A stretch of DNA of 32,013 nt from Gammaproteobacteria bacterium (GTDB taxonomy: Bacteria > Pseudomonadota > Gammaproteobacteria > Steroidobacterales > Woeseiaceae), in assembly GCA_030425905.1 (NCBI GenBank), contig JAUHZT010000021.1:1-32013 (forward strand), in the 5' to 3' direction. The position numbers and the translations under genes are program-made. This document shows positions 2,096 to 31,066 of this stretch, in pieces (the stretch's first letter is position 1; every line of letters starts with the position of its first letter). Below the pieces are notes generated by a model that saw only the letters and a program-made list of their open reading frames with translations, did no database searches and had not been told where the DNA came from.

Positions 2096-2103
2096 GGTCC
2101 TGC

Positions 2104-2571: not shown

Positions 2572-3809
2572 GCAAAAACAGCCGCTGCCTTGCGTATTGC
2601 CGCGCAAAGTCTGTCGACGTCGTCACGGCTGTTATAAAGCGCGAGCGAAGCTCTTGCGGTGCCGGGCAGCTTGAAGAAGTCCATCACGGGCATGGCACAG
2701 TGGTGTCCGGTGCGAATCGCGATGCCCTGATGATCAAGGATGGTACCCAGATCATGCGGATGGATATCGCCCAGCATGAAAGACTGCACACTGGCTTTGT
2801 GTTCTGCCGTGCCAATCAGGCGCAGGTCATCAACCGCGCTCAACTGCTGCATGAGGTAGTCGAGCAGCGTGGCCTCATGTGCTGCGATGCGGTCCATGCT
2901 GATGCCCTCAAGGTAGTCGACTGCTGCGCCCAAGCCAATTACCCCCGCAATGTTCGGTGTGCCGGCCTCGAACTTGTAGGGCAGTTCGTTAAACACGGTG
3001 CCGTCGAAGCGCACTTCCAGGATCATGTCACCGCCGCCTTGCCAGGGTGGCATGTCATCCAGAAGGGCCTCTTTGCCGAACAACACGCCGGTGCCGGTCG
3101 GACCCAGCATTTTGTGGCCGGAGAACGCATAAAAGTCGCAACCGAGCTCCTGCACATCCACGGCCATGTGCGGCACCGCCTGTGCGCCGTCTACAAGCAC
3201 GGGAATATCGCGCTCCCTGGCCAGGGAGATAATCTTCCTGAGCGGATTGATCGTACCCAGCGCATTCGACACGTGGCCGATGGCCAGCATCTTCACGTCG
3301 TCGGTCAACAATTGCTCAAGCGCGTCAAGTTCCAGCTGACCGCGGGAATCAATCGGGGCGACGAGCATCTCGGCGCCTGTTTGCTCGCACACGAACTGCC
3401 ACGGCACAATGTTCGAGTGATGCTCCAGGTGCGTGATCAGTACTTTGTCGCCGGGTTTCAGCCGTGGTCGGCAAAAGCTTTGAGCGACAAGGTTGATAGA
3501 CTCGGTAGTGCCACTGGTCAGTACTATTTCGCTGCGGCTACGCGCATTGATAAAACCTTGCAGTTTGTCACGCGCCCCTTCATAGGCTTCTGTCGCCCGG
3601 TGGCTGAGCGTGTGTACGCCCCGATGAACATTTGCATGGTCGTGTTGCTGGTAGCGCGCGACGGTATCAATGACGGACTTGGGCTGCTGTGCGGACGCAG
3701 CGCTGTCGAGATAGACAAGTTCATGCCCGTGAATCTCCTGCAGCAACGCAGGAAAATCGTCGCGCAGATTCAGCTCAGCACCCGAATTCGAAGCTTGTAC
3801 CTGACTCAT
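2568..3809 (-). CDS. sufS: SufS, PLP-dependent cysteine desulfurase (group II)
   Basis: Removes sulfur from L-cysteine, leaving a persulfide on the enzyme that feeds Fe-S cluster assembly. The 413 residues match the family length. Visible landmarks are LDSAASAQQP near the N-terminus, TSGTTESINLVA (PLP phosphate binding), THLEHHSNIVPW, SGHKMLGPTGTGVL with the PLP-binding lysine, and RTGHHCA with the catalytic cysteine near the C-terminus. The short active-site loop places it in the SufS/CsdA group rather than the IscS group. Its ATG overlaps the sufD stop by four bases, and its stop overlaps sufU by four bases, indicating translational coupling. Confidence 0.97.
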   Translation of the reverse strand: MSQVQASNSGAELNLRDDFPALLQEIHGHELVYLDSAASAQQPKSVIDTVARYQQHDHANVHRGVHTLSHRATEAYEGARDKLQGFINARSRSEIVLTSGTTESINLVAQSFCRPRLKPGDKVLITHLEHHSNIVPWQFVCEQTGAEMLVAPIDSRGQLELDALEQLLTDDVKMLAIGHVSNALGTINPLRKIISLARERDIPVLVDGAQAVPHMAVDVQELGCDFYAFSGHKMLGPTGTGVLFGKEALLDDMPPWQGGGDMILEVRFDGTVFNELPYKFEAGTPNIAGVIGLGAAVDYLEGISMDRIAAHEATLLDYLMQQLSAVDDLRLIGTAEHKASVQSFMLGDIHPHDLGTILDHQGIAIRTGHHCAMPVMDFFKLPGTARASLALYNSRDDVDRLCAAIRKAAAVFA

Positions 3810-5080
3810 GATTGTCTTCCGTCATCGATCGTACGCAGTCGCTCCTCAACCTGTCCGCCAAGAAACTCATGTGCCTCGCTAATCGGCGACGTGTTAACGA
3901 TTGTTGCGGCGAATGCGCGGGTCAGGATGCGTTTCGCATCTGGCTTGCTGATGCCGCGGGCACGCAGATAGAACAGGGCGCGTTCGTCGAGTTGTCCCAC
4001 GGTGGTGCCATGTGCGCACTTGACGTCGTCAGCATCAATTTCGAGTTCTGGCTTGGCGTCAATCTCGGCGGCGTCAGAAAGCAGCAGATTGTGGTTTGCT
4101 TGCGTTGCGTCCGTCCCATCGGCGCCCTTGTGCACAATAGCCTTGCCATTCCAGACGGCGCGGCAGTGCCCACTCAGCACCCCGCGGTATTCCTGTTGCG
4201 AAATCGCGGGGCCAACGAGGTGATCGACTTTTGTGTGGTTGTCGACGTGCTGACCGTCGGCCACGATGTACAGGCCATTGAATCTGGCAGTGGCATTTCG
4301 ACCCTGAATAGCGACGTTCAGATCGTTGCGGGTCAGCCTGCCACCCAGATCGAAGCTGCCGTGATGCAGGCTGCTGTCGCGTTTGAGGCTGACGTTCAGC
4401 CGTGCCGTCTGGCTATGGTTTGTTGCGCGGTCCTGCAGTCGCAGGTATTCGCAAACAGCGCCTTCCGCGAGATCAAGGTGCAATACGCAGTTCGAGTAGT
4501 GTTGAGCAGGGCCCGATGAGACATGTGCTTCGACGATGCGCGCGTTCGCGTTGCGTTCCAGCGAGATGTTCACACGCGCGTGCGTACTCGCTACGGCGTT
4601 CTCAACCGTATCGATAAACAACAGGCCGAGTGGTTTGTCAGGTGCAAATTCTGCGCATATATCGAGCTTCAGCCCGTCTCTGAGCAATGCGAGGTTCAGG
4701 TCGGCCAGCGGCTCGTCGATAGCCAGGTCTGTTTTCTGCAGTGAGCCGGATTGAACACCGGGAATATTAGTGCCCGGGGAATGCTGTTCGAGTACTTTTC
4801 CGTTGGCGATCACGATCCAGTGCGCATCGAGATTCGCCTGCGTTTGGCGCAGCAGATCTTCATCGATAGCGGCGGGCGCGGACGCCACCTGCAGAGACTG
4901 CTGGCTGATCTCAATAACGTTGCTGAGGTCAGTGTACTTCCAGTCTTCGTCGCGCACGGTTGGAAAGCCACGCGCAACGAACAGGTTTGCCGCGTCGCGG
5001 CGGCTGGCAGTCAGGCTATCTACCGGAAGATCACGCACGGCCTGCAACAGTGCTTCATGGTTGAACGCTGGCTCGCTCAT
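3806..5080 (-). CDS. sufD: SufD, Fe-S cluster scaffold complex subunit
   Basis: SufD partners SufB and the ATPase SufC in the SufBC2D scaffold that builds Fe-S clusters. The 424-residue product (E. coli SufD 423) has the characteristic DEDWKYTDL segment near residue 50. It then has the beta-helix core, with HHGSFDLGG, LYIVADGQHVDNHT and the GHCRAVWNGKAIV strand. The C-terminal ends with DDVKCAHGTTVGQLDERALFYLRARGI and an FAATIV helix region. The start at ATG 5080 is chosen because it overlaps the sufC stop as ATGA; an eight-residue longer form is open but unlikely. The 3' end overlaps sufS by four bases. Confidence 0.96.
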   Translation of the reverse strand: MSEPAFNHEALLQAVRDLPVDSLTASRRDAANLFVARGFPTVRDEDWKYTDLSNVIEISQQSLQVASAPAAIDEDLLRQTQANLDAHWIVIANGKVLEQHSPGTNIPGVQSGSLQKTDLAIDEPLADLNLALLRDGLKLDICAEFAPDKPLGLLFIDTVENAVASTHARVNISLERNANARIVEAHVSSGPAQHYSNCVLHLDLAEGAVCEYLRLQDRATNHSQTARLNVSLKRDSSLHHGSFDLGGRLTRNDLNVAIQGRNATARFNGLYIVADGQHVDNHTKVDHLVGPAISQQEYRGVLSGHCRAVWNGKAIVHKGADGTDATQANHNLLLSDAAEIDAKPELEIDADDVKCAHGTTVGQLDERALFYLRARGISKPDAKRILTRAFAATIVNTSPISEAHEFLGGQVEERLRTIDDGRQS

Positions 5081-5829
5081 GCGTTCGCGGCCTCGCGTAC
5101 CCATTCGTAACCTTTCTTCTCCAGTTCAAGCGCGAGCGACTTGTCGCCCGAACGAATGATGCGACCGGCGGAGAGCACATGTACGAAGTCTGGTTCGATG
5201 TAGTCGAGCAGACGCTGATAATGGGTAACCAGAATAATGGCCCGGTCCGGACTGCGCAGGGCGTTGACGCCGTTTGCAACCGCCTTGAGTGCGTCGATAT
5301 CGAGGCCCGAGTCTGTTTCATCAAGAATGGCCAGGTCCGGTTCGAGCATGGCCATTTGCAGGATTTCATTACGCTTCTTTTCGCCGCCTGAGAATCCTTC
5401 ATTGACGCCGCGATTCAGAAATTTCGGGTCCATTTCCAGCAAGGCCATTTTCTCGCGCGCCAGTTTCAGGAATTCAAAGGCATCGATCTCGTCGAGCCCC
5501 TGGTGCTGGCGCTTGGCATTGACCGCCGCTTTGAGCAGGTAGGCATTATTGACACCCGGGATCTCGACCGGGTACTGGAAGCCGAGAAAAATACCTTCGC
5601 GCGCGCGTTCCTCGGGGGCCAGCTCCAGCAAGTCCTTGCCTTTGAACTGCACCGAGCCGCCGGTTACTTCGTAGTCCTCGTGTCCGGCAACCACCTGCGC
5701 AAGCGTACTCTTGCCGGAGCCGTTCGGACCCATGATGGCGTGGACTTCACCGGCCTTCACATTGAGCGTCAGGCCACGAAGAATTTCGGTCTCGCCGATG
5801 CGAGCCTGGAGGTCTTTAATGTCTAGCAT
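5077..5829 (-). CDS. sufC: SufC, Fe-S assembly ABC-type ATPase
   Basis: Cytosolic ABC ATPase of the SufBC2D complex. The 250 residues carry Walker A (GPNGSGKSTL), a Q-loop region (FLGFQYPVEIPGV), the SufC-type signature FSGGEKKRNEI, Walker B with the family-specific LAILDETDSGLDIDALK, and the switch histidine in ILVTHYQRLL. No membrane partner is nearby, and the gene sits between sufB and sufD, so a transport role is ruled out by context. The start is 9 bases after the sufB stop, and the stop overlaps the sufD start. Confidence 0.97.
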   Translation of the reverse strand: MLDIKDLQARIGETEILRGLTLNVKAGEVHAIMGPNGSGKSTLAQVVAGHEDYEVTGGSVQFKGKDLLELAPEERAREGIFLGFQYPVEIPGVNNAYLLKAAVNAKRQHQGLDEIDAFEFLKLAREKMALLEMDPKFLNRGVNEGFSGGEKKRNEILQMAMLEPDLAILDETDSGLDIDALKAVANGVNALRSPDRAIILVTHYQRLLDYIEPDFVHVLSAGRIIRSGDKSLALELEKKGYEWVREAANA

Positions 5830-5838
5830 GTGCTTTCC

Positions 5839-7287
5839 TTAACCGACGGCGCCTTCGAGGCTGACGTTGAGTAACGCCTGCGCTTCCACGGCGAATTCCA
5901 TGGGTAATTCGTTAAATACTTCTTTGCAAAAACCGTTCACGATCATGTTGACGGCGTCTTCTTCAGAGATGCCGCGTTGCCGGCAATAGAACAACTGGTC
6001 GGCCGAAATCTTCGACGTCGTTGCTTCGTGCTCAATGCGCGCACTCGGATTCTTGATCTCCATGTACGGAAAGGTATGGGCGCCACACTCTTTGCCAATC
6101 AGCAAAGAGTCGCACTGGGTGTGATTGCGTGCGCCCTGGGCTTGCGGCATGACGCGTACGAGGCCGCGATAAGCATTTTGCGCGTGTCCCGCCGATATAC
6201 CTTTTGAAACGATAGTGCTGCGCGTATTACGGCCAATGTGGATCATCTTGGTACCGGTGTCGGCCTGCTGGTAATTATTGGCAACGGCCACCGAGTAGAA
6301 CTCGCCAACGGAGTTGTTGCCGCGCAGAATACAGCTCGGGTATTTCCACGTGATCGCCGAGCCTGTTTCAACCTGCGTCCAGGAAATCTTGGAATTGGCA
6401 CCGCGGCAGTCACCGCGCTTGGTCACAAAGTTGTAAATGCCGCCAACACCGTTCTCGTCACCGGGGTACCAGTTTTGCACCGTGGAGTACTTGATCTCGG
6501 CATCCTTTAGCGCCACTAGCTCAACGACGGCCGCGTGTAGCTGGTTTTCGTCTCGCATCGGCGCCGTACAGCCTTCTAGGTAACTCACGTGACTGCCTTC
6601 GTCCGCGACGATCAGCGTGCGTTCGAACTGCCCGGTATTCGCCGCGTTAATGCGGAAATAGGTAGATAGCTCCATCGGGCAGCGCACGCCCTTTGGAATA
6701 TAGACAAACGATCCATCACTGAAGACCGCGGAGTTCAGGGCTGCGAAAAAATTGTCGCGCTGCGGCACGACCGTGCCGAGGTACTTCCGCACGAGTTCGG
6801 GGTGATTCTTGACGGCTTCGGAAAACGAGCAAAAGATGACACCGGCTTCCGACAGCTTTTTCTTGAACGTGGTTGCTACCGACACACTGTCGAACACGGC
6901 ATCGACCGCAACGCCCGCAAGCCTGGCTCGTTCGTGCAACGGAATGCCGAGCTTGTCATAGGTTTCGAGCAATTTCGGGTCTACTTCGTCCAGGCTCTTC
7001 GGTCGGTCCTTATCGGACTTGGGTGCCGAGTAGTAGGAAATGGAGTTGTAGTCGATGCGCGGGTAGTGCACGTGTGCCCATTCGGGCTCGACCATCTCCA
7101 GCCATTGCCGGTAGGCACGCAGGCGCCACTCGAGCATGAATTCGGGCTCTTCCTTAAGCGCTGAGATTGCGCGCACGACATCTTCGTTGAGCCCCGGGGG
7201 TAAACCCTCGCTGGCGATGTCGGTAACGAAACCGTGCGCATAGCGCCGGTTTACGAGTTCTTCAATGTTTTCAGATTCAGTAGACAC
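5839..7287 (-). CDS. sufB: SufB, Fe-S cluster scaffold subunit
   Basis: Main scaffold on which the nascent Fe-S cluster is assembled. From the chosen GTG (7285-7287) the product has 482 residues and begins with [19 protein letters not shown], as SufB proteins usually do. A TTG ten codons upstream is also open but would extend into the regulator gene. The GTG lies one base after the regulator stop (TGA-C-GTG). Landmarks are [18 protein letters not shown]-like sequence near residue 75, [35 protein letters not shown] and, near the C-terminus, [21 protein letters not shown] with the conserved cysteine. It is the first structural gene after the regulator. Confidence 0.96.
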
Positions 7288-7288
7288 G

Positions 7289-7768
7289 TCAGGATTTCTT
7301 CTGGGGTCGGTTTTCAATAGTTACAGGCACGCCGGCAAAGCTGAACCGCGGAGCGCGATGGCCGGTGTCGGAATGGAGGAGATCCTGCAGGCTCACCTCG
7401 TCGAGCGCCTGGCGAATGGCGACGTTAATACGTTGCCAGGCACCGCCGACGTTGCACACGCCTTCGTGTTCACAGTGGCTGTCGAGCGAGCTGCATTCGG
7501 TAATCGAAACGGGACCTTCGAGCGCATCGATGACATCGGCTGCTGTAATCTGGCAGGCTGCGCGGGATAGCTGGTAGCCGCCACCTGCGCCGCGGGTTGA
7601 CTGCACCAGGTCGGCGCGCGCCAGCGATTTCAGTAGCTTGCTGACGGTGGGCAAGGCTATCCCGGTGGCCTCGGCGACATCGGTGGCGCTGACCACGCGT
7701 GCATCGGCCGCCGCGAGGTGCGCCAGCACGACGGTGCCATAGTCGGTCAACTTGCTGATTCTGAGCAC
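7289..7768 (-). CDS. SUF-system Rrf2-family Fe-S regulator (IscR/SufR-like)
   Basis: Transcription regulator that probably senses Fe-S status and controls the suf operon it heads. The 159 residues have an N-terminal winged helix ([19 protein letters not shown], with [21 protein letters not shown] as the recognition region and [12 protein letters not shown] as the wing). A three-cysteine cluster-binding segment follows, in [15 protein letters not shown]. The start is a GTG at 7766-7768, with GGAG nine bases upstream. The protein matches the SUF-linked subgroup of Rrf2 regulators rather than E. coli IscR itself. A matching palindromic operator lies 25 bases upstream of its start, so autoregulation is likely. 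Confidence 0.92.
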
Positions 7769-20744: not shown

Positions 20745-22106
20745 TTATTCCGCGATTGCGAAATCGTCCAGAAGAATAAGTCCGAGCGCCGTTTCGCCGG
20801 GTAACGGATCCCTTGCAACGGCGGTATAGACTCCACCATCCGACACCTCGATAGACGCCGGTCCGATGGCCGCGGTCTTGCTACCTGTAGCGGTGACCGT
20901 TACATCGTAGTCACCGGCCGCAAGTGCGATGTAACCGGTGTTCGCCTTGAACGGGATAGAGGCGAGCGTTGGCATTTCGTTATTGATGTTGGCGCCAACC
21001 GCGGTAACGTAGATGTCCACTTCACCGGCACTGGGCGATGCATGCACAATTCTCACTTTGGCGTTGGTTGCCACCGGGCGTGGGTCGTCAGTGAGGATAA
21101 GTGGCTCGATGGCTGCGAGTTCACCAACCGCCAGTACCGAGTAGCGTTCGCCGGCCAGTAGCTCCAGGTCAACGGGACCAATCGCAACTGCACCCGGGTT
21201 GCCGGCAACGGTAACCGCTACTTCGTACGTTCCGCCTGCTACCTCCACGAAAGGTGTTGCCTCAGGAAATGCGAGGCTCGGTACGAGTACGCCACCATCG
21301 ACCAGTACGTCAACTTCTGGTGCGTCGGGAGACGCATGAACTACTTGCAGGGATGTCGGCGTGTCCATGTCCAGAATTTCGGCCGAGCCAGTGCCCGTCA
21401 GCGCTACGAGGCCAATGGGTGCATTGCCACCGCTTGTGTTGGGCAGCGCGGCTAGCGTCAGGTCGTCACCATCGTCTAGCGTCACTGTACCGGAATCGTA
21501 GACAACCGCCGCCGGGTCGCCGGATGCGGTTACGCGGATCTGGTAGTCGCCCGCTGCAACTTCAGCCGGCCCGATAGTTTCTTTGAAAGAGAATGTGCCA
21601 ACCGGTGCACTTGCCGTGAGATCGGCCCCGGGTGTTGTGACGAACACATCGACTTCCGGTGCTCCGGCAGCGCCATGCAGAACAAACAGTCGGGCTGAGC
21701 CTGCACTGACCGCAATATCGGGTTGGCTGATAACTACGGCTTCAATAGCGCTTGCTTCATTAACGGCGGCAATGGTGTAGATCGTATCGCCCGACAGGTC
21801 CAGATTCACTGGGCCAATAACCGTCGCTGTTCCACCTGGCAGTATTCCATCAACCTGTACAGAATGGGTGCCCTCATCGAGCACAAGCTGGCCGGAGCCT
21901 GTCTTGTAGTCTACGTCGCTTAGAACCTCGGCACCGTCGACCAGCACGTTTACAGCAGGTGCATCGGGCGATCCGTGCAGCACCTGCACCTTAAGCGTGG
22001 CAACTAGAGGCGGCTGAACAGCCTGTACGTTGTCATCGTCGTCATTGTCACAAGCGGCAAGCATTAGCATGCTGCAAATGACGAGGAACTTACTGGTGTG
22101 TTTCAT
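20745..22106 (-). CDS. Lipoprotein with four DUF4397 repeats
   Basis: A 453-residue lipoprotein. From ATG 22106 the signal [19 protein letters not shown] places the lipid on Cys19, followed by an acidic D/N spacer (DNDDDDN). The rest is four related ~100-residue beta-rich modules, each opening with a V-x-x-x-H-[GA]-[SA] ... [AG]-x-[VE]-V-[ND]-[VI] pattern ([52 protein letters not shown]) and ending in a YTIAAV/YSVLAV-like strand. DUF4397 proteins are cell-surface proteins of unknown, perhaps binding, function. The longer frame from 22154 lacks a signal peptide at its N-terminus. It is divergent from the two-component system. Confidence 0.88.
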
Positions 22107-22193
22107 TTTCTGCCCCTTGGTTTTGGCTATCAGTTGAAGAGGCGTCAGTGTCACAGGCGTCGGGGGGCAAAGGGTCTCAGGCCTGTTTCAAAC

Positions 22194-22209
22194 TGTATCG
22201 AGATGTATC
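22194..22209 (+). promoter_or_regulatory. Tandem TGTATC repeat, candidate OmpR-family binding site
   Basis: TGTATC occurs at 22194-22199 and again at 22204-22209, exactly one helical turn apart, 52 bases before the response regulator start and within the divergent region to the DUF4397 gene. OmpR-family regulators bind such 10-bp direct repeats. It may be an autoregulatory site; no convincing -10/-35 pair could be assigned here. Confidence 0.4.
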
Positions 22210-22260
22210 AGGTAGCCATTGTTGTGTAACAGCCTTGGTAAGACGCGCTATCATCCCCGC

Positions 22261-22956
22261 ATGGCAAAAGTGCTGCTTATAGACGATGACCGGAAGCATT
22301 CGGAGTTGATGCAGGCGTATTTCAAGCGCTACGGCATCAATCTCATTTGTGCGTATGACTCGGTGCAAGGGCTTAAGAAGCTAAACCGGGAACAACCGGA
22401 CCTGTTGCTGCTCGATATCATGTTGCCGGGCAAGGACGGTTTCGAGATATGCCGGGAAGTCCGTAAGTTCAGCAATATACCTATTATCATGCTCACAGCA
22501 CGCGGCGATGTCATTGACCGGGTTTCAGGCCTGGAACTCGGTGCCGATGACTATGTGGGTAAACCTTTTGAGCCTCGTGAACTCGTCGCTCGCGTGCAAG
22601 CCGCACTGCGTCGTTCGGAACTGGCGGGTTCAACTATCGGTGCGCTGAACTTCGAAGGGCTTAGTATTGATACAGAACTTCGATCCGTCAGCGTCGACGG
22701 GCAAGCCGTGGACTTGACCTCAATGGAGTACGAGCTTCTTCTGATCCTTGCACGCAAGCAGGGGCGCAAGCTCTCACGTGATGACATTCTGAGCGAGTTG
22801 CGCGGCATCGATGCGGCTATCCTGACGCGAGCGGTGGATATCATGATCAGCCGCTTGCGCCACAAAATTGGCGATACGGCGAAGCCCCCAAGGTTCATCC
22901 AGACCATTTGGGGACGCGGTTACTCATTTGTTGGCATCCCGAGAGCTGATGCTTGA
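22261..22956 (+). CDS. OmpR/PhoB-family response regulator
   Basis: A 231-residue two-domain regulator. The receiver domain (1-~120) has the acidic pocket LLIDDD (Asp8-10), phospho-acceptor Asp52 in LLLLDIMLPGKDG, the Thr in MLTARGD and Lys in VGKPFEP. The C-terminal winged helix (about 135-228) has LTSMEYELLLILARKQG, ILTRAVDIMISRLRHKIG as recognition helix, and the wing IQTIWGRGYSFVG. It is most like the CpxR/RstA type. ATG 22261 fits the family; the frame extends 14 codons upstream without likeness. It overlaps the kinase gene by eight bases. Confidence 0.95.
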   Translation: MAKVLLIDDDRKHSELMQAYFKRYGINLICAYDSVQGLKKLNREQPDLLLLDIMLPGKDGFEICREVRKFSNIPIIMLTARGDVIDRVSGLELGADDYVGKPFEPRELVARVQAALRRSELAGSTIGALNFEGLSIDTELRSVSVDGQAVDLTSMEYELLLILARKQGRKLSRDDILSELRGIDAAILTRAVDIMISRLRHKIGDTAKPPRFIQTIWGRGYSFVGIPRADA

Positions 22957-24289
22957 GCGCCTCTCACATTCGCTGTCATTTCGGCTGTTACTTATTTTTG
23001 TCTTGCTGGGTGGCTTGTTCATTTTCGGCACCTTCAAGGCTGTGCAGCGCTTCTACAATAGTGACCAGATCCGCGGTCTGATCAGTGGCCATCTCTCATT
23101 GCACGTTAACTACGTACGTGAAGATATTGGTGTGCCGCCGCGTATAGATCGTGCGCTCACAATCACCAGGAAGGTGCCGGTTGATATTCGAATTCTCGGC
23201 CCGGACATGGACTGGGCATCCGATCCGGCATTTCCTCGCATCGAGAATCTGGATTTTGCGGCCAGCCCGAGATTCAGTGACAGTCCCGGCGCGTGGGCCG
23301 ACGAGTTGCAAGGTGTCGATTTTGCAGCGCAAGATAACCACGATTTCTTGCGCATACGCCAGGGCGGCTACGAGATCGCCGTTTCGACGCCCAGAATATC
23401 GGATGTGTCGGAAGGTCCCGGGTTGGTCCCGCTTGTTCTGGGGCTCGGGCTTTCTTTCCTGTTGCTGGCCTATCTCGCGGTTTCGTGGCTGTTTCGCCCG
23501 ATCCGGACGATCCGTGACGGTGCACGGCGCATTGGTAGCGGAAATTTTGATTTTCGAATAAAAAATGTACGTCGCGACCAGTTAGGTGACCTCGCAGCCG
23601 ATATAAACACGATGGCCGGCGATGTCCAGAGAATGCTCGATGCGAAGCGTGCGTTGTTGCTGGGAATCAGTCATGAGTTGCGCACACCGCTGTCGAGAAT
23701 GCGATTAACGCTCGAGTTTCTGGAGGATGATGAGAACGCTCGTGGTCTGAAAGAAGAAATCATCGAAATGGAGAAGATCGTTGCGGCATTGCTGGAGGCG
23801 GAGCGGCTGAACAGCTCGCACGCAGCGTTAGTGCGAAGCGACGTGTCTATAAACGAACTCGTGCGCAAGTTGCTGCAGGACTTTTTCCAGAAATCCGCGG
23901 ACCGCTTGCAGGTCGTTCTACCGGCGGACCCGCTCATCGTTTCCGTCGATGAGGCACGTATTGCCTTGTTGCTGAAGAACCTCATTAGCAACGCGCTCCG
24001 TTACTCACGGCGCGAGGATGGGCCGATAGATATTGTTGTTTCCCGCGAAGAAAACGAACTCATCATCAGGGTGAGTGATAACGGGCCGGGTATGTCCGCT
24101 GAGGAGGCTCGGCATATCGGCGAGCCTTTCTACCGAAGTGATGTGTCGCGGGCGCGCGAATCAGGAGGTACGGGGTTGGGATTGTACCTCGCGTCACTGG
24201 TGGTCAAGGCTCATGGTGGCAGTTTGCGACTGCTAGACACTCAAAAGCCCGGCGCCAGCTTCGAAGTCCGTATTCCGCTGGTACGGTAA
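22949..24289 (+). CDS. EnvZ/CpxA-like sensor histidine kinase
   Basis: A 446-residue inner-membrane kinase, partner of the preceding regulator. Layout: membrane helix at about 11-29, a periplasmic sensor region of ~130 residues (about 30-158) without a recognisable ligand domain, a second helix at about 160-182, and a HAMP domain (FRPIRTIRDGARRIGSGNFDFRI). A dimerisation H-box follows, with His242 in LGISHELRTPLSRMRL. The catalytic domain has the N-box LLKNLISNALRYS, G1 SDNGPGM, an F-box GEPFYR, and G2 GGTGLGLYLA. The ATG lies in the last codons of the regulator gene. The signal is unknown; the downstream lipid genes suggest membrane state or oxidative stress (inference). Confidence 0.94.
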   Translation: MLERLSHSLSFRLLLIFVLLGGLFIFGTFKAVQRFYNSDQIRGLISGHLSLHVNYVREDIGVPPRIDRALTITRKVPVDIRILGPDMDWASDPAFPRIENLDFAASPRFSDSPGAWADELQGVDFAAQDNHDFLRIRQGGYEIAVSTPRISDVSEGPGLVPLVLGLGLSFLLLAYLAVSWLFRPIRTIRDGARRIGSGNFDFRIKNVRRDQLGDLAADINTMAGDVQRMLDAKRALLLGISHELRTPLSRMRLTLEFLEDDENARGLKEEIIEMEKIVAALLEAERLNSSHAALVRSDVSINELVRKLLQDFFQKSADRLQVVLPADPLIVSVDEARIALLLKNLISNALRYSRREDGPIDIVVSREENELIIRVSDNGPGMSAEEARHIGEPFYRSDVSRARESGGTGLGLYLASLVVKAHGGSLRLLDTQKPGASFEVRIPLVR

Positions 24290-24334
24290 AGCTACACCGA
24301 AGTGCCTACCTGCAACACTGTGATCCCGGCAGTT

Positions 24335-24350
24335 TGTAAGCGAATGTAAC
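24335..24350 (+). promoter_or_regulatory. Tandem TGTAAG/TGTAAC repeat, CpxR-like box
   Basis: TGTAAG (24335-24340) and TGTAAC (24345-24350) are one helical turn apart; read as GTAAG-N5-GTAAC they resemble the CpxR consensus GTAAA-N5-GTAAA. The box ends 16 bases upstream of the predicted -35 of the lipid-gene promoter, a position typical for activation. The preceding genes encode a regulator of this class. Confidence 0.5.
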
Positions 24351-24366
24351 GAAACCACTTTCTCTA

Positions 24367-24395
24367 TTGTTGGCGGAAAACAGGCCTCGTATATT
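24367..24395 (+). promoter_or_regulatory. Predicted sigma-70 promoter of the lipid-modification genes
   Basis: TTGTTG (24367-24372), 17-base spacer, TATATT (24390-24395). The -10 is near consensus while the -35 is weak, consistent with a promoter that needs an activator. Transcription should begin near 24402, about 20 bases before the methyltransferase ATG. Confidence 0.55.
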
Positions 24396-24421
24396 GGTTG
24401 CTCACTATTCTGGAGGCTGCG

Positions 24422-25486
24422 ATGAGCGGCTTGACCACAAGAGCAGTCAGTTGGACCGAGTCCGGACTTGTCCCGGATCCCGTCATTCGCGCGGCTATCA
24501 GGCGCCTGCTTGAGAACAAGCGCAGGGAAATTCACTCGGGTGATGTGGAGTATGCCGCCAATGCCTTAAACGGCTTCGTGGCTATGATGGATCAATCACC
24601 TGTCGCGCTGCAGCCGGACGTCGCGAACGAGCAGCATTATGAAGTGCCGGCAGAATTTTTTGCACAGGTGATGGGCGATCACCTCAAATACAGCTGTTGC
24701 TACTGGCCGAAAGACGTCAGCTCCCTTGCCGAGGCGGAAGCGGCGGCCCTGGCTGTAACAGCCGAACGGGCAGGTATTGCGGACGGAATGCGCGTTCTCG
24801 ACCTTGGCTGCGGATGGGGCTCCTTGTCATTGTGGATCGCTGAACATTTTCCGGGCACACAGGTTGTATCGGTATCCAACTCTTCCAGTCAAAGTGCGTT
24901 TATCAACGACCAGGCGAGGCGTCGTTCAATAAGCAATGTCGAGACAATTGTTTGCGATATGAACGACTTTGATACCGAGCAAAAGTTTGATCGGGTAGTC
25001 TCGGTTGAAATGTTCGAGCATATGCGCAACTACCGGGAACTGTTCCGGCGTATTGACAATTGGCTGCTCCCGAACGGGCAGTTTTTCATGCACATTTTCT
25101 GTCATCGAACAACGCCGTACGAATACCAGGACAAAGGGCCAACAGACTGGATGAGTCGGCACTTTTTCACAGGCGGCATCATGCCGAGTGCGAACCTGCC
25201 ACTGCGATTTGCCGACAATTTGCAGATTGCGAAGCAATGGCAGTGGAATGGCAGCCATTACGCCAAGACGAGCAATGCGTGGTTGGCCAACATGGATAAG
25301 AACGAGGCATCCATTATGCCGGTGTTCGAGCGTTGCTACGGCGCATCTCACGCATCATTGTGGTGGCAGCGCTGGAGAATGTTCTTTATGGCTTGCGCCG
25401 AATTGTTTGACTACAACGAGGGGCATGAGTGGTTTGTAAGTCACTACCTGTTCGATAAATCCGGACGCACAGATGCTATTGGCTAA
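24422..25486 (+). CDS. Coclaurine N-methyltransferase-like SAM-dependent methyltransferase
   Basis: A 354-residue class I methyltransferase of the Cfa/mycolic-acid/CNMT superfamily. Residues 72-95 (HYEVPAEFF..., LKYSCCYWP) bind and orient substrate; the SAM site is VLDLGCGWGSLSLWIAEHFP (about 125-144). The segment VSVEMFEHMRNYRELF (about 193-208) keeps Glu196, Glu199 and His200, which correspond to the catalytic residues of plant coclaurine N-methyltransferases as I remember them. HHFCH-like HIFCHRTTPYEYQ and FFTGGIMPSANL also match that branch better than true Cfa. CTGGAGG lies six to twelve bases before ATG 24422. The substrate here is unknown; a lipid or amine is plausible from context. 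It overlaps the next gene by 14 bases. Confidence 0.85.
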   Translation: MSGLTTRAVSWTESGLVPDPVIRAAIRRLLENKRREIHSGDVEYAANALNGFVAMMDQSPVALQPDVANEQHYEVPAEFFAQVMGDHLKYSCCYWPKDVSSLAEAEAAALAVTAERAGIADGMRVLDLGCGWGSLSLWIAEHFPGTQVVSVSNSSSQSAFINDQARRRSISNVETIVCDMNDFDTEQKFDRVVSVEMFEHMRNYRELFRRIDNWLLPNGQFFMHIFCHRTTPYEYQDKGPTDWMSRHFFTGGIMPSANLPLRFADNLQIAKQWQWNGSHYAKTSNAWLANMDKNEASIMPVFERCYGASHASLWWQRWRMFFMACAELFDYNEGHEWFVSHYLFDKSGRTDAIG

Positions 25487-26018
25487 TCTTGTCATTTTTC
25501 AGGTGGCCTGGTTGCTGTCGGTTGTTGGCGGCGCACAGCAAATGCCGTGGCTTGGGCCGCTCGCAGCCGTATTCGCACTGATCGTCCACCTGCGTGCAGC
25601 CCGCAAACCGTTTGAGGAAGTGCTGCTGGTTTTGCTTTGTGGTGTTCTCGGCGCCTGTTTCGATAGCGCCCTGGTGAGCGCTGGCTGGGTTGCTTACAAA
25701 GCCGGCCAGTTTAGCGAATTCATGGCGCCATACTGGATCATCACAATGTGGATGCTGTTTGCGATGACCCTCAATGTTTCCTTGCGCTGGCTCAGGGACC
25801 GGCCGGTTCTCGCGGCACTGTTTGGCTTTTACGGCGGGCCCGCGTCTTATATCGCGGGCGAAGCACTGGGTGGCATTGTGCTCGTTGACAAGCTCGCTGC
25901 GCTACTGGCACTGGCGGTCGGCTGGGCGGTCATGATGCCACTGCTGATGAAGACCGCCGAGTATTTCGACGGGATGCCGGGGGCACGGCGTAACTGGATT
26001 GCGGCATCCACTCGATGA
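25473..26018 (+). CDS. DUF2878 integral membrane protein
   Basis: A 181-residue inner-membrane protein with about five to six hydrophobic segments, from the N-terminal VIFQVAWLLSVVGGAQQMPWLG to the C-terminal LLALAVGWAVMMPLLM. Conserved DUF2878 marks are the N-terminal F-Q-x-x-W, GVLGACFDSALV, MLFAMTLNVSLRWL and FYGGPASYIAGEALGGI. Family members are often found beside Cfa-type and DUF1365 genes. The ATG is inside the end of the methyltransferase gene (14-base overlap), implying coupling. The function is unknown. Confidence 0.85.
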   Translation: MLLANLVIFQVAWLLSVVGGAQQMPWLGPLAAVFALIVHLRAARKPFEEVLLVLLCGVLGACFDSALVSAGWVAYKAGQFSEFMAPYWIITMWMLFAMTLNVSLRWLRDRPVLAALFGFYGGPASYIAGEALGGIVLVDKLAALLALAVGWAVMMPLLMKTAEYFDGMPGARRNWIAASTR

Positions 26019-26064
26019 AGCGGCGCTCGGGCTGCGACGGGAATAACGTTTCTGGAGACGTGCA

Positions 26065-26583
26065 ATGAGCAGGTACCTGGTCATTTTAAGTGCAATCCTG
26101 TTGGCGGGATGTGCCGCTAAAGAGGCTGAAATGAAAACAGTTGACTACGTGGACATTGATCGATTCATGGGTGCGTGGTACGTCATTGGCAACATACCCA
26201 CGTTCCTGGAAAAGGACATTTACAACGCTGTCGAGACCTACAGTCTGAATGATGATGGCACTATTGATACGGTATTCACGTTTCGGCGTGGCGGCTTTGA
26301 CAGCGCCGAGAAAGAATATAACCCCAAGGGTTTTGTGCTGGACGAGCAGACCAATGCACGTTGGGGCATGCAGTTTATCTGGCCCGTGAAATCCGACTAT
26401 CGCATCGTATACCTGGACGACGAATATACGACGACAATAATCGGGCGACAGAAGCGTGACTACGTGTGGATTATGGCGCGAACGCCCACGATCGATGAGG
26501 AAGAGTATGCGCGCCTGGTAACTATTGTAGAGGAACTCGGCTACGACCTGTCGTCGCTAAGACGCGTTCCGCAACAGTGGTAG
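26065..26583 (+). CDS. Blc-type lipocalin lipoprotein
   Basis: Outer-membrane lipocalin that in E. coli binds fatty acids and lysophospholipids. The 172 residues have the lipobox LLAGC (Cys16) and the lipocalin signature FMGAWYVIGNIPTFLEKDIYN (about 34-54). Strand motifs follow, including NPKGFVLDEQTNARWGMQFIWPVKSDYRIVYLD, TTIIGRQKRDYVWIMARTP and a C-terminal alpha-helix EEYARLVTIVEELGYD. The length equals the usual Blc (~177). CTGGAG lies ten bases before the ATG. It sits between membrane and lipid-modifying genes, fitting a role in carrying damaged or modified lipids (inference). Confidence 0.92.
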   Translation: MSRYLVILSAILLAGCAAKEAEMKTVDYVDIDRFMGAWYVIGNIPTFLEKDIYNAVETYSLNDDGTIDTVFTFRRGGFDSAEKEYNPKGFVLDEQTNARWGMQFIWPVKSDYRIVYLDDEYTTTIIGRQKRDYVWIMARTPTIDEEEYARLVTIVEELGYDLSSLRRVPQQW

Positions 26584-26587
26584 CCCG

Positions 26588-27862
26588 GTGAAGGTTGCTG
26601 TCATAGGTACGGGTATCGCCGGTAATGTCGCCGCATTCAAGTTGCGGCGCGAGCATGACATAACGGTCTTTGAAGCAAACTCGTATATTGGCGGACATAC
26701 AAACACCGTCGACGTGGTCGAGGACGGGCAAACCTATGCAGTAGACACCGGCTTTATCGTTTACAACGATCGCACCTACCCCAACTTCATCCGGTTGCTT
26801 GATGAACTCGGGCAGGCATCGCAGCAAAGCGAAATGAGTTTTAGCGTGCAGGCCAGCAATGGCGGCATTGAGTATAACGGTGCTTCTTTGAATTCGTTGT
26901 TCGCGCAGCGCCGAAACATTTTTCGACCGTCATTCTATCGCATGCTTAGAGACATTCTTCGCTTCAATGAGTTGGGCTTGCAGGACCCGACGGATGGCGA
27001 CGGGGAAGAATCCCTTGCAGAGTTCTTGCGACGCAAGAAGTTTAGCCGGGAGTTTGCAGAGCACTACCTGATTCCGATGGCTGCGGCTATCTGGTCGGCT
27101 GAACGGTTTTCGGTGCTGGATATGCCGATAGGTTTCCTGGTTCGCTTTTTTGCCAATCATGGACTGCTACAACTTAGCGACCGTCCGGTCTGGCGCGTGA
27201 TAAAGGGGGGATCACGGCAATACGTCAGGAAACTCGTTGCCGGCCATGCGGACCGGATACGCCTGGCAGCGCCGGTCGAATCAGTGCGCCGGCGGAATGG
27301 GCAGGTTGAGATCTACTCGGCGGCCGGTGGCAAGGAAGTATTCGACGCGGTCTTCATGGCTTGTCATAGCGACCAGGCGCTGAAACTGTTGCGAGATGCG
27401 ACGTCAACTGAGCGCGAAGTACTTGGGGCTATCAGGTTCCAGACGAATGAGGCCATTCTGCATACCGACTGTTCGTTGATGCCAAGGCGCCGCAGGGCGT
27501 GGGCAGCGTGGAACTACCGTTTGCCTGAAACGCATCAGCACCAGGTAGCTGTTACTTACAATATGAATATTCTGCAGGGCCTGGCCGCGAACAAGCAGTA
27601 CCTGGTAACCCTGAACAACCGGCAGGACATAGACGAGCGGCAGATAATTCGAACAGAACATTACGATCACCCGGTCTTTTCCAGGGCGGCACTGGCCGCG
27701 CAAGCGCGCCATGCTGAAGTCTGCGGACCGCAAACCTATTTCTGCGGTGCCTACTGGCGCAACGGCTTTCATGAAGATGGAGTTGTCAGTGCACTCAGGG
27801 CCGTCGAATTTTTTAACGAGGAGTCATCCGGTGCACAGTTGCATTTACGAAGGGCGGGTTGA
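26588..27862 (+). CDS. FAD/NAD(P)-dependent oxidoreductase, amine-oxidase/desaturase-like
   Basis: A 424-residue flavoprotein from GTG 26588, four bases after the lipocalin stop. The N-terminal dinucleotide motif is VAVIGTGIAGNVAAFKLRREHDITVFEANSYIGGHTNTV, with GxGxxG at 7-12 and the acidic residue closing the motif. GFIVYNDRTYPNFIRLL, MPIGFLVRFFANHG, VWRVIKGGSRQYV and the C-terminal YFCGAYWRNGFHEDGVVSALRAVE (second FAD contact) match the COG2907 group. That group regularly accompanies DUF1365 and Cfa genes. A role in desaturating methylated fatty-acyl chains, as proposed for the Rhodobacter furan-fatty-acid pathway, is possible but not shown. Confidence 0.87.
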   Translation: MKVAVIGTGIAGNVAAFKLRREHDITVFEANSYIGGHTNTVDVVEDGQTYAVDTGFIVYNDRTYPNFIRLLDELGQASQQSEMSFSVQASNGGIEYNGASLNSLFAQRRNIFRPSFYRMLRDILRFNELGLQDPTDGDGEESLAEFLRRKKFSREFAEHYLIPMAAAIWSAERFSVLDMPIGFLVRFFANHGLLQLSDRPVWRVIKGGSRQYVRKLVAGHADRIRLAAPVESVRRRNGQVEIYSAAGGKEVFDAVFMACHSDQALKLLRDATSTEREVLGAIRFQTNEAILHTDCSLMPRRRRAWAAWNYRLPETHQHQVAVTYNMNILQGLAANKQYLVTLNNRQDIDERQIIRTEHYDHPVFSRAALAAQARHAEVCGPQTYFCGAYWRNGFHEDGVVSALRAVEFFNEESSGAQLHLRRAG

Positions 27863-28598
27863 GCACACTCGGACAGCACCGGCCCGGCATCAGTTCAGCT
27901 ATCGCTTGTTCATGATGTACCTGGACCTCGACGAACTCGACGAGGTGTTTCGCAAACACTGGTTCTGGTCAGTCAGACGGCCGGCACTTGCCAGCTTTCG
28001 GCGCGAAGATCACCTTGGGCCAGCGACGCAAGACCTGGGTGCCGCGGTTCGCGACCGGGTCGAGGCGGAAACGGGACAGCGGCCGGAAGGTCGCATACGG
28101 CTACTCACTAATTTGTCTTACTTTGGCTACTGCTTCAATCCGGTGAGCTTCTACTATTGTTATGCGGCTGATGGCGAGACAGTTGAGTACATCGTCTGTG
28201 AAGTCAATAACACGCCATGGGGCGAACGCGACACCTACGTTCTTGATTGTAGTAAAGCAGAGAGCGTCCAGGCACATTGGGATTTTCGGCCCGGTAAAAA
28301 GATGCATGTGTCCCCGTTCATGCCGATGGATGTCGACTATCACTGGGTCCTGTCCAACCCGGCTGAGCGGCTTTCGGTGTTCATGGCGAATTTGCAAGAC
28401 GGGGAGCGCATGTTCAGTGTCGCGATGCGTCTCGAGCAAAAAGCAGTGACTGGCTGGTCGCTAAGTTCGGTGCTGTTGAGGTTTCCCTTGCAAACGATGA
28501 AGGTTATTTTCGCCATCTATTGGCAGGCATTGCGACTCTGGCTAAAGCGCTGCCCCGTTTACCCGCACCCGGGTAGCAAGAAAAAGGCGGTTGTATAA
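27831..28598 (+). CDS. DUF1365 family protein
   Basis: A 255-residue protein. I chose GTG 27831 (VHSCIYEGRVEHTRTAP), where DUF1365 proteins begin and which has GAGGAG seven bases upstream; it overlaps the oxidoreductase by 32 bases. Conserved marks: EGRVEHTRTAPARHQFSYRLFMMYLDLDEL at the N-terminus, RIRLLTNLSYFGYCFNPVSFYYCY in the middle, EVNNTPWGERDTYVL and KKMHVSPFMPMDVDYHW. No catalytic mechanism is established for the family; it is co-inherited with Cfa-like enzymes and was tied to furan-fatty-acid synthesis in Rhodobacter. It is followed by the Cfa-like gene after one base. Confidence 0.9.
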   Translation: MHSCIYEGRVEHTRTAPARHQFSYRLFMMYLDLDELDEVFRKHWFWSVRRPALASFRREDHLGPATQDLGAAVRDRVEAETGQRPEGRIRLLTNLSYFGYCFNPVSFYYCYAADGETVEYIVCEVNNTPWGERDTYVLDCSKAESVQAHWDFRPGKKMHVSPFMPMDVDYHWVLSNPAERLSVFMANLQDGERMFSVAMRLEQKAVTGWSLSSVLLRFPLQTMKVIFAIYWQALRLWLKRCPVYPHPGSKKKAVV

Positions 28599-28599
28599 G

Positions 28600-29877
28600 A
28601 TGAATACCGGTACGAATTCCATGCATTCTGCTGAGATCGGCGAGAGTGATACGGACTGGTCACCACTGGACCGCTTGGCGCGCAGGGTCGTTCTCTCAAG
28701 ACTCGAAAAGCTGCAACAGGGACAAATTCTTTTCATCGAAGACGGTGTGTGCACAGCCGTTGGTCACAAGGTCGGCACTCGCTCCTTGAGCGTGGAAGTG
28801 CATGTATTGAGTCCGAAGTTTTATCGGCAGATCGCATTCCAGGGGGCGGTCGGTGCTGGTGAGGCGTATATACACGGCTACTGGGCATGCAGCGACCTGC
28901 GCGACCTGCTGCGAATTCTGCTGCAGAACCGCGAGGTGCTCGAGAATGTCAGTGGCGGGTTGGCGATGCTGGGCAAGCCGATCCTGGCGATGCTCCATGC
29001 GCTACACAGGAATACCAGGAAGGGCAGCCGTAAAAATATCAGCGCGCACTATGACCTGGGTAATCCGTTCTACCAGCTCTGGCTGGATCCGACGATGATG
29101 TATTCATGCGCCTATTTTGATTCAGCGGAGAAAACGCTGGAAGAGGCCGCTACCGAAAAGCTCGATCGAATATGCCAGAAGCTGGACCTTTCGGCGGGCG
29201 ATTCGATCATTGAAATTGGCACAGGCTGGGGCGGTTTCGCTATTCACGCAGCTCGTCACTACGGATGTCACGTAACGACGACGACGATCTCCAGGCAGCA
29301 GTACGAGTTTGCAAGACAGGCTGTAGTCGATGCTGGCGTTGAAGACCGGGTTACGTTGTTACTAAAAGACTACCGTGATCTTGAAGGGCGCTTTGACAAG
29401 CTGGTGTCGATAGAGATGATCGAAGCGGTCGGGCATGAGTATCACGACAGGTTTTTCTGCAAGTGTGCAGAGTTGCTCAAGCCCAACGGACAAATGCTGC
29501 TGCAAGCAATAACGATGGCGGATCAGCACTACGACAGCTATAAGACGCGCGTGGATTTCATCAAGCGGTATATTTTCCCGGGCGGGTGTCTGACATCGGT
29601 CACGGGTATGGCTGAAACAATGACCCGGCATACCGACCTGCGAACAATTCACCTGGAGGATATTGGCCCTCATTACGCGAGAACATTGCGGCATTGGCGT
29701 GCACGATTCAATGCGCGCCTCGATGACGTACGCGAGCTTGGCTACTCGGAGTCGTTTATTCGCATGTGGGAGTTCTACCTCGTCTATTGCGAGGCCGCTT
29801 TCATGGAGCGGGCCATTGGCACAGTGCAGCTACTGGCTGTCCGACCGGGCGCGCGGCGCGAAAAAATAGAGTACTAG
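28600..29877 (+). CDS. Cyclopropane-fatty-acid synthase-like methyltransferase
   Basis: A 425-residue SAM enzyme acting on unsaturated phospholipid chains. The N-terminal ~140 residues form the Cfa lipid-binding domain (FQGAVGAGEAYIHGYWACSDLRDLLRIL). The catalytic domain shows ISAHYDLGNPFYQLWLDPTMMYSCAYF, the SAM motif IIEIGTGWGGFAIHAARHYGCHV, TISRQQYEFARQ, the active-site segment VSIEMIEAVGHEYHDRFF and, near the C-terminus, ESFIRMWEFYLVYCEAAF. The ATG at 28600 is one base after the DUF1365 stop. Length exceeds E. coli Cfa (382) mainly at the N-terminus. The product may be a cyclopropane or a methyl-branched chain leading to furan lipids; sequence alone does not decide. Confidence 0.92.
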   Translation: MNTGTNSMHSAEIGESDTDWSPLDRLARRVVLSRLEKLQQGQILFIEDGVCTAVGHKVGTRSLSVEVHVLSPKFYRQIAFQGAVGAGEAYIHGYWACSDLRDLLRILLQNREVLENVSGGLAMLGKPILAMLHALHRNTRKGSRKNISAHYDLGNPFYQLWLDPTMMYSCAYFDSAEKTLEEAATEKLDRICQKLDLSAGDSIIEIGTGWGGFAIHAARHYGCHVTTTTISRQQYEFARQAVVDAGVEDRVTLLLKDYRDLEGRFDKLVSIEMIEAVGHEYHDRFFCKCAELLKPNGQMLLQAITMADQHYDSYKTRVDFIKRYIFPGGCLTSVTGMAETMTRHTDLRTIHLEDIGPHYARTLRHWRARFNARLDDVRELGYSESFIRMWEFYLVYCEAAFMERAIGTVQLLAVRPGARREKIEY

Positions 29878-30009
29878 ATGCCGGGGTACGCGGTGCTGTA
29901 ATCACAGTGCGCAGTGGTGTCAAAGTTAGCCGAACACGTTTTCGGCAGAGCAATCAGCACCGTTGTGGCAAGCGCGCTCGCGGCGAACAGTCGACCAACG
30001 CTGCCCGGT

Positions 30010-30930
30010 TTATCGCGTCAGGTATGCGAGCTGCGCGGCGTCGAAAGAGGCAGCCTTGCGGCCGATCAGTGCTTCCAGAGTCGTGTGATCGGCCGTGTTG
30101 TTTTCCGCAAGCATCGTGAGTTGATCTTTGCTGACCGGGAAACCGGGGAGCCAACCCAATGCCAGCGCAAAAACTTTCATCAAAGGCACAGGCATCGGCA
30201 CTATGATTTTTTTGCGACCGATAGCCGTAGCAATGCTCCGGACAATATCGTTCCAGCTCAGTTCTTCCGGGCCGCCCAGTTCGTAGGTCTGTCCGATGGT
30301 CCGCGGATCGCCGAGCGCCTGAACAAATGCATCGGCGACGTCGGCGACGTGCACAGGCGACATGCGAGCGCTGGGTGAAGCAGGTGACCAGCGTGTCCGA
30401 AAGTCGATTGCAGGCAAGGGCGGCCGGATCATGTCGTTAGCGAGCTGGGTCGCAAATTCCATCCTGCCGCGCGGGTCGCCGAAAATTACCGACGGGCGAA
30501 AGATCGTGCAGTCGAGGTTCAGTTCACGCGCAAATTGCTCGGCGCGGAACTTCGTGTCCTGGTAGGGAGTACCGCCAGCACGTACCCCATTGGCGCTCAT
30601 GAGTAGAAATCGCTCAATGCCAGCCGCCTGCGCAGCGCGTGCAACTTTGGCCGCACCCTCGAATTGCAGTGCCTCAAAGCTAATACCCCTGGCGGGGTCC
30701 TCGTCCAGAATTCCAACGCAATAAACAACCGCACTGCAGTCGCGTAGAGTAGCGGCGATAGCCGAGTCACTGGCAAGGTCTCCGGAGACCGTCACGCAGC
30801 TATCGGGGCGCGGTATTTTCGACTCGCTGCCGGCGCGCACCAGCAGTCTCACACTATGACCGTGGGCGAGCAGGGCGTCGATGATGTACGAGCCGACAAA
30901 GCCTGTGCCGCCGAACATGGCAACCTGCAT
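30010..30930 (-). CDS. NDUFA9-like atypical SDR (NAD(P)-binding) protein
   Basis: A 306-residue extended/atypical short-chain dehydrogenase. The N-terminal [32 protein letters not shown] gives the GxxGxxG Rossmann motif. [21 protein letters not shown] and a YxxTKxxAE-like [11 protein letters not shown] follow. [23 protein letters not shown] and [16 protein letters not shown] place it in the complex-I NDUFA9-like group. The role in bacteria is unclear (quinone- or NAD-linked chaperone or reductase). It converges on the Cfa-like gene; the 132 bases between (29878-30009) show no clear gene or terminator. Confidence 0.87.
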
Positions 30931-31066
30931 GTTGTACTCCGTTCCCGAACCGTCGCCGATTATCGCATGCGGCTGCGACGGAAACTGTTACCGGTTGTTT
31001 CAGTACCGGGCAGAGCGCTACTCTAGTCATTGTGATCCATACTTACTGAGTGCGTTAGGCAGAAAA

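Follow-up and report, generated by a model that had tools for sequence, protein, structure and literature searches.

The locus described here raises the question of which regulator controls a set of putative furan-fatty-acid genes. The analysed stretch of DNA (hereafter, the window) comprises 32,013 nucleotides, namely positions 1 to 32,013 of contig JAUHZT010000021.1 in the assembly GCA_030425905.1 of a gammaproteobacterium of the family Woeseiaceae. The list of open reading frames (ORFs) and profile searches revealed six consecutive plus-strand genes at positions 24422–29877, located behind genes encoding a response regulator (RR) and a sensor histidine kinase (HK). The six genes encode a methyltransferase designated M1, a DUF2878 protein, a lipocalin and proteins resembling UfaD, UfaO and UfaM. 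With a probability of about two in three, we assume that the locus is an operon for membrane-lipid modification that is under its own kinase–regulator pair, makes a furan fatty acid and belongs to a photo-oxidative-defence regulon.

The source assembly (G000; 3.38 Mb, 240 contigs, 88.8% complete), in which the window is contig C236, was compared with 73 genomes of one genus and a few relatives where control was concerned. The wider set included 119 relatives.

The kinase–regulator pair and the conserved repeats

The junctions within the six-gene run are, in order, an overlap of 14 bases, gaps of 46 and 4 bases, an overlap of 32 bases and a gap of 1 base. Apart from the 46-base gap, the genes overlap or are separated by no more than 4 bases (four of the five junctions), and the mostly overlapping or nearly touching genes reported in the first-pass annotation, which was made from the letters alone, are thereby confirmed. 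The RR and HK genes share 8 overlapping bases; gene starts in the window were chosen with the help of relatives. According to hydropathy, two hydrophobic segments of the HK flank a region of about 120 residues that is taken as periplasmic, and this sensor region is conserved among 25 aligned sequences. Both proteins scored below the cut-off for all 25 best NCBIfam models listed; the receiver and winged helix of the RR and the HAMP-type HK are the same as in OmpR/CpxR/RstA-type systems.

The tandem box and the promoter that had been proposed between the two-component genes and the run are both present in the interval between HK and M1. Direct repeats of 10 bp are typical of OmpR-type regulators. 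The box before M1 is the sole exact match in its own genome; a second site with one mismatch (C152:1324) was dropped, being located inside an ORF. M1 was found in 48 of the 73 genus genomes, two of which (G030 and G062) were excluded because their upstream DNA is too short. In 45 of the 46 others, which have 100 or more upstream bases, a box scoring 11–13 of 13 is present at −85 to −92 of M1; random 150-base windows reached a score of 11 in 25 of 5000 cases, and some of these probably represent the real box. In the alignment of M1 upstream regions, the box columns contain 1.68 bits vs. 0.24 bits for upstream columns, with a pairwise identity of 0.87 vs. 0.32; the flanks are saturated with changes and serve as the control. 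The only one of the 46 genomes without the box, G050 (88% complete), contains M1, and no RR ortholog was found in it. A search for the exact box pattern gave 39 sites in 37 of the 73 genomes, and 35 sites precede M1; the reversed pattern gave 3 sites. The sites in G035:C4, G064:C43 and G036:C209 lie at none of the queried genes.

Both promoter hexamers (TTGTTG and TATATT) are conserved at a fixed distance from the box. This promoter was absent from the output of a generic promoter scan (4 promoter-like sites vs. 4.8 expected in shuffles), so it is supported by conservation and not by the scan. The centre of the box would fall near −60 of the expected transcription start.

The RR has one ortholog each in 49 of the 73 genus genomes (E ≤ 1e-70; 76–88% identical, window excluded). 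Both RR and M1 were found in 45 genomes, only RR in 4 (G007, G035, G048 and G067), only M1 in 3 and neither in 21 (Fisher p 2e-11, a value that overstates independence because the genomes are related). The genomes with only M1 are G050 and two in which RR or HK is lost at a contig end (G041 and G066); the latter two and G068 (62% complete) are included in the 24 genomes scored as lacking the RR. For RR and DUF1365, the family of UfaO, the counts are 41 with both, 8 with RR only, 4 with DUF1365 only and 20 with neither. Among the 48 M1-bearing genomes, 24 have the HK no more than 2 kb before M1. In seven others (G005, G009, G022, G033, G036, G045 and G052), the RR is located 15–31 kb from M1 on the same contig, and the box is retained; at several of the remaining loci, the contig ends too early.

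A related repeat was found before the RR gene itself. Promoters were collected from 41 loci, which included 38 of the 49 RR-positive genus genomes and the more divergent L085, L224 and L263. A perfect TGTWWC-N4-TGTWWC repeat was found in 37 of them at about −66 to −77, and in 2 of 5000 random windows. In many genus genomes, the gene encoding the DUF4397 protein is divergent from RR across the repeat region that they share; in L085 and L224, it lies between the RR and M1 genes. The RR/M1 co-occurrence, the M1 box, the RR repeat and the absence of both the box and an RR ortholog from G050 support the "rewired control" suggested in the first-pass annotation.

Table 1. Positions of the genes and candidate regulatory elements in the window, followed by two-component genes near M1 relatives in named genomes
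Feature	Position	Strand	Evidence or remark
DUF4397 protein gene	20745..22154	-	PF14344, 244 bits; start uncertain; divergent from RR
Repeat TGTTTC-N4-TGTATC-N4-TGTATC before RR, candidate autoregulatory site	22184..22209	+	own-genome match 22194-22209
OmpR-type response regulator (RR)	22261..22956	+	Response_reg + Trans_reg_C
Membrane sensor histidine kinase (HK)	22949..24289	+	HAMP, HisKA, HATPase_c
Box TGTAAGCGAATGTAAC before M1 (10-bp direct repeat), putative RR site	24335..24350	+	pattern TGTAA-N2-GA-N-TGTAAC
Sigma-70-like promoter TTGTTG-N17-TATATT	-35 24367-24372, -10 24390-24395	+	read from sequence, conserved
M1, coclaurine N-methyltransferase (CNMT)-type S-adenosylmethionine (SAM) methyltransferase	24422..25486	+	CMAS family, 145 bits
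DUF2878 small hydrophobic protein	25473..26018	+	PF11086, 139.8 bits
Blc-type lipocalin	26065..26583	+	Lipocalin_2 PF08212, 138 bits; N-terminus lipoprotein-like by eye
UfaD-like FAD/amine-oxidase-type oxidoreductase	26588..27862	+	Amino_oxidase + NAD_binding_8; GTG start
UfaO-like DUF1365 protein	27831..28598	+	PF07103, 278 bits; GTG start
UfaM-like fatty-acyl methylase, relative of cyclopropane fatty acid (CFA) synthase	28600..29877	+	CMAS, 310 bits
Third TGTWWC-type repeat TGTTACCGGTTGTTTC, weak candidate site	30986..31001	+	between NAD(P)-binding epimerase-like and cbpA/dnaJ-like genes
Face-to-face HK/RR pair, Kangiella taiwanensis	L254:11045-13014		
Face-to-face HK/RR pair, Acinetobacter pittii	L268:11080-13100		
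Face-to-face HK/RR pair, gamma proteobacterium HTCC5015	L271:11315-13827		

The cassette and its repeats in other genomes

The gene order recurs in dozens of genomes, so the synteny is beyond chance; this was one of the checks proposed for the locus at first pass. The most complete gene order seen in the genus runs DUF4397, RR, HK, the photolyase gene phrB (on the opposite strand), M1, DUF2878, DUF1295, DUF6134, lipocalin, ufaD, ufaO and ufaM, in which DUF4397, phrB, DUF1295 and DUF6134 are each absent from some copies. The window contains a short version, without phrB, DUF1295 and DUF6134 at the site. DUF1365 was found in 68 of the 119 relatives, 45 of these in the genus. Note that the window lipocalin scored 86.6 bits with the NCBIfam Blc subfamily model, under the cut-off of 267. 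At 1544–7768 of the window, ORFs were read from their translations alone as a SUF iron–sulphur assembly cluster with an Rrf2-type regulator.

In addition, named genomes were scanned for M1 relatives and the best 80 of 478 confirmed loci were kept; their titles span several phyla and some loci are short. ORF clusters at these 80 loci included DUF1295 (61), DUF2878 (42), DUF6134 (33) and a desaturase (27), and UfaO matched 53 of the 80. Within 10-kb flanks, a MerR regulator of the B12 type was counted at 16 loci, an extracytoplasmic function (ECF) sigma factor at 7, an RR at 10 and an HK at the same 10. Some loci are mixed, namely L228 (MerR and ECF), L234 (MerR and two-component genes) and L277 (ECF and two-component genes). 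A MerR, an ECF sigma and a ChrR-like cupin protein were confirmed by Pfam in one case each; additional ChrR-like neighbours were assigned by visual inspection. RRs 67–80% identical to that of the window occur in L215, L224 and L263, all titled Woeseiaceae. A different HK/RR pair, arranged face to face, is located just after M1 in Kangiella (L254), Acinetobacter (L268 and L283) and HTCC5015 (L271), and Pfam confirmed three of these four pairs. Thus, the wider cassette is not peculiar to the window genome; copies of it occur close to genes for LitR-type MerR proteins, ECF sigma factors and further two-component systems.

Related repeats were also found away from the cassette. In the 73 genomes, 30 TGTTAC-N4-TGTTAC sites occur in 25 of the 49 RR-positive vs. 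1 of the 24 RR-scored-absent genomes; the reversed control occurs in 8 of 49 and 9 of 24, respectively. Of the 30 sites, seven are located before a glutathione peroxidase (GPx) gene, which is often divergent from a gene encoding an NAD(P)-binding/DUF2867 protein; the other 23 are not before GPx, some being within ORFs. The start of the GPx protein is signal-peptide-like by eye. Its gene is present in 35 of the 49 RR-positive vs. 2 of the 24 genomes in which the RR was scored as absent, namely G041 and G068, for both of which the data are incomplete. Upstream regions were examined for 30 of the 38 GPx matches, and the repeat scored 11–12 of 12 in 18 of these loci, 10 in 4 and 7–9 in 8, while random windows scored 11–12 in 16 of 5000 cases. 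GPx is a weaker candidate target, where TTGTTA may double as the −35 element.

A broad regulon in the source genome, proposed from the pattern TGTWWSNNRWTGTWWC, was rejected: 4 sites were found (reversed control 0) and about 3 are expected by chance, so only the position and conservation of these sites carry weight. The tkt/metK site was rejected as a shared target, metK not being a recurrent neighbour among the TGTTAC-N4-TGTTAC sites. The repeat at the epimerase promoter is present in two of the four genomes with upstream sequence (the window and G018) and absent from G057 and G065; L316 is too short.

What the pair may control and what the cassette may make

It is unlikely, in our estimation, that the kinase pair chiefly controls a module of M1, DUF2878, DUF1295, DUF6134 and lipocalin responsible for another lipid change, with ufaD-ufaO-ufaM as loosely attached passengers that have promoters of their own. 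Such a division would agree with G022, G008 and G012, which carry the RR, the box and M1-DUF2878-DUF6134-lipocalin, yet have no DUF1365 match genome-wide (estimated contamination is 6% for G012 and 9% for G008), and with some named loci, e.g., L226, L229, L232 and L235, where M1 occurs without ufa genes in the flanks. However, in the genus loci that hold ufa genes, the cassette forms a contiguous run, with 6–49 bases between the lipocalin and ufaD alignments, and the UfaO count at the named M1 loci given above also argues for a joint unit.

The other alternative concerning control, that RR and HK are mere neighbours and a different conserved regulator binds the box, appears quite unlikely. The RR/M1 co-occurrence, the repeat of the same period before the RR and the lack of both box and RR in G050 speak against it, although the box persists where the RR is located 15–31 kb from M1. 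The half-sites also differ, being TGTAAC before M1, TGTTTC or TGTATC before RR and TGTTAC before GPx, and a single regulator is assumed for all of them. In G070 (73% complete), an exact box occurs beside a DUF2878-DUF6134-lipocalin group, and neither RR nor M1 was found in this genome.

The three genomes without DUF1365, in view of which the box may serve M1 first, the half-site differences and G070 all weigh against control of the whole run by the RR, and so do several further points. The promoter repeat is missing before the RR in 4 of the 41 loci (G057, G037, G010 and G004). Both the M1-box and RR-box patterns were composed after viewing the sequences, so the box counts are descriptive; the relatedness of the genomes means that relocation or loss of the RR may represent few events. 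As for the wider regulon, the source genome has no GPx ortholog, and its one photolyase gene is on another contig, with no perfect repeat in the 200 bases upstream.

The last three genes of the run fit ufaD, ufaO and ufaM by domain and order. In PMC7380195, UfaD is described as a desaturase with an NAD/FAD-binding domain, UfaO as carrying DUF1365 and UfaM as a SAM methylase, and the genes RPA2571-2569 of Rhodopseudomonas palustris follow the D-O-M order by locus tag. The gene identities and the furan-fatty-acid lead that the first-pass annotation gave agree with these domains and this order. DUF1365 is present in the window UfaO; the window UfaD has its amine-oxidase and NAD-binding domains beside DUF1365, is likened to RSP1091 by domain type only, and has the LkcE amine oxidase as its best solved structure.

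An alignment of 120 UfaM-type rows with the CFA synthase structure 6bqc was used to compare four positions (His, Cys, Glu and Tyr), which bind bicarbonate in CFA synthase. The His of the LLHTIG motif is replaced by Gln in 118 rows (2 gaps), the Cys position contains Ser in 64, Cys in 37 and Ala in 14 rows, and Glu and Tyr are kept in 118 and 117 rows, respectively. The changes relative to the E. coli CFA synthase fit a non-cyclopropane product. It is very unlikely that the products of the cassette are cyclopropane or simple methyl-branched acyl chains and not furan acids: both methyltransferases belong to the CMAS family and UfaM-type proteins retain Glu and Tyr, but the His-to-Gln change and the adjoining UfaD- and UfaO-type genes in the D-O-M order published in PMC7380195 argue otherwise.

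The best solved structure for M1 was coclaurine N-methyltransferase (6gkv, E 1.9e-74), with CFA synthase (6bqc) at E 4.2e-31; judged by sequence, M1 is nearer to the former. One locus, L288, has the order ufaD-ufaO-ufaM-M1-DUF1295, a possible place for a second furan methylase; the record is titled PS1 clade, which we take to be alphaproteobacterial. M1 and the window UfaM are 26% identical over 329 positions, a value that does not decide the orthology of M1 and FufM (RPA0924). FufM, the second furan methylase, is reported to be 26% identical to the UfaM of Rhodobacter sphaeroides (PMC7380195).

Under the preferred reading, in which the pair controls the whole run, the HK would sense an envelope signal via its periplasmic region and phosphorylate the RR. 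The RR would bind TGTWWC-type repeats with a spacing of 10 bp, located 16 bases ahead of the −35 element at the M1 promoter, and would activate the operon, M1 being transcribed first and ufaD-ufaO-ufaM by read-through; it would also act on its own promoter. UfaM would methylate a cis-monoenoic acyl chain of a phospholipid, UfaD would desaturate the methylated chain, and UfaO would insert oxygen from O2 to give a methylated furan fatty acid, which would act as a scavenger of singlet oxygen and similar species. A second methylation, either of this lipid or of a head group, is probably the role of M1.

Comparison with published modes of control

Within the literature surveyed, the published control of bacterial furan-fatty-acid genes includes only ECF-sigma/ChrR and LitR-type systems. 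No two-component link to these genes was present among the literature matches listed, with most subscription papers lying outside the search. Sigma-E/ChrR control of ufa-type genes is described in PMC7380195 and PMC6852236, and the former reports that the furan acid of R. sphaeroides rises on chrR deletion. LitR-type control was described in Pseudomonas, where phrB and ufaM are about 25–33-fold light-induced (PMC9758184). In Shewanella oneidensis, RpoE2-ChrR controls a phrB-cfa operon and a periplasmic glutathione peroxidase (PMC4336711), and a cfa-type gene is induced by blue light in Vibrio cholerae (PMC5241685). 

As the first-pass annotation had stated, no sigma/ChrR pair is present at the locus, judging by the 10 proteins scanned there (20745–30930). 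A ChrR-cupin search of the source genome gave one sub-threshold match (25.6 bits vs. a cut-off of 27), a 281-residue lipoprotein-like ORF; ECF sigma factors were not searched for genome-wide. The ChrR-cupin family was rejected as a marker of ChrR, being unspecific: it matched 102 of the 119 relatives, many with two-cupin frames of about 220–280 residues. Frames with two ChrR-type cupin matches occur about 2.5 and 7 kb from the RR in G019:C64:26488-27117 and G001:C32:12842-13474. No B12-binding MerR was found among the same 10 scanned proteins, the rest of the window being read by eye only.

The window genes encode the same three domain types as UfaM, UfaD and UfaO of R. sphaeroides and RPA2571-2569 of R. 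palustris, the latter in the same D-O-M order. In contrast to the R. sphaeroides ufa pathway, they follow a two-component system and share their run with M1, DUF2878 and lipocalin. The Pseudomonas LitR/PplR/PmlR regulons also cluster phrB, a short-chain dehydrogenase, an FAD oxidoreductase and ufaM, but their regulators are class II LitR/CarH proteins, a type not found among the proteins scanned at the window locus. As with Shewanella RpoE2-ChrR, phrB, a cfa-type gene and glutathione peroxidase would be under one regulator in the window genus. However, Shewanella uses an ECF sigma factor with TGATC...CGTA-type promoters, whereas the window genus has a sigma-70-like promoter with a 10-bp repeat.

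Mainly because of this Shewanella parallel, we put forward a broader proposal, tentatively and at somewhat less than even odds. A dedicated kinase–regulator pair may have taken over a photo-oxidative regulon (furan genes, photolyase and exported glutathione peroxidase) from sigma-E/ChrR or LitR, the damage being read in the periplasm by the HK and not through ChrR turnover or a light-sensing LitR. M1, DUF2878, DUF1295, DUF6134, lipocalin and the desaturase may then extend the furan pathway, with M1 as a candidate second methylase. The face-to-face pairs in Kangiella, Acinetobacter and HTCC5015 suggest that two-component takeovers happened more than once.

These comparisons suggest that the new element is the two-component control of a ufa-type cassette, control by sigma-E/ChrR and LitR-type regulators having been published already. 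If the proposal is true, one protective cassette has been rewired to different sensors, and a little-studied lineage would offer a periplasmic signal to identify and a small, well-bounded regulon. The recurrent companions M1, DUF2878, DUF1295, DUF6134 and lipocalin are directly testable candidates for steps of the pathway.

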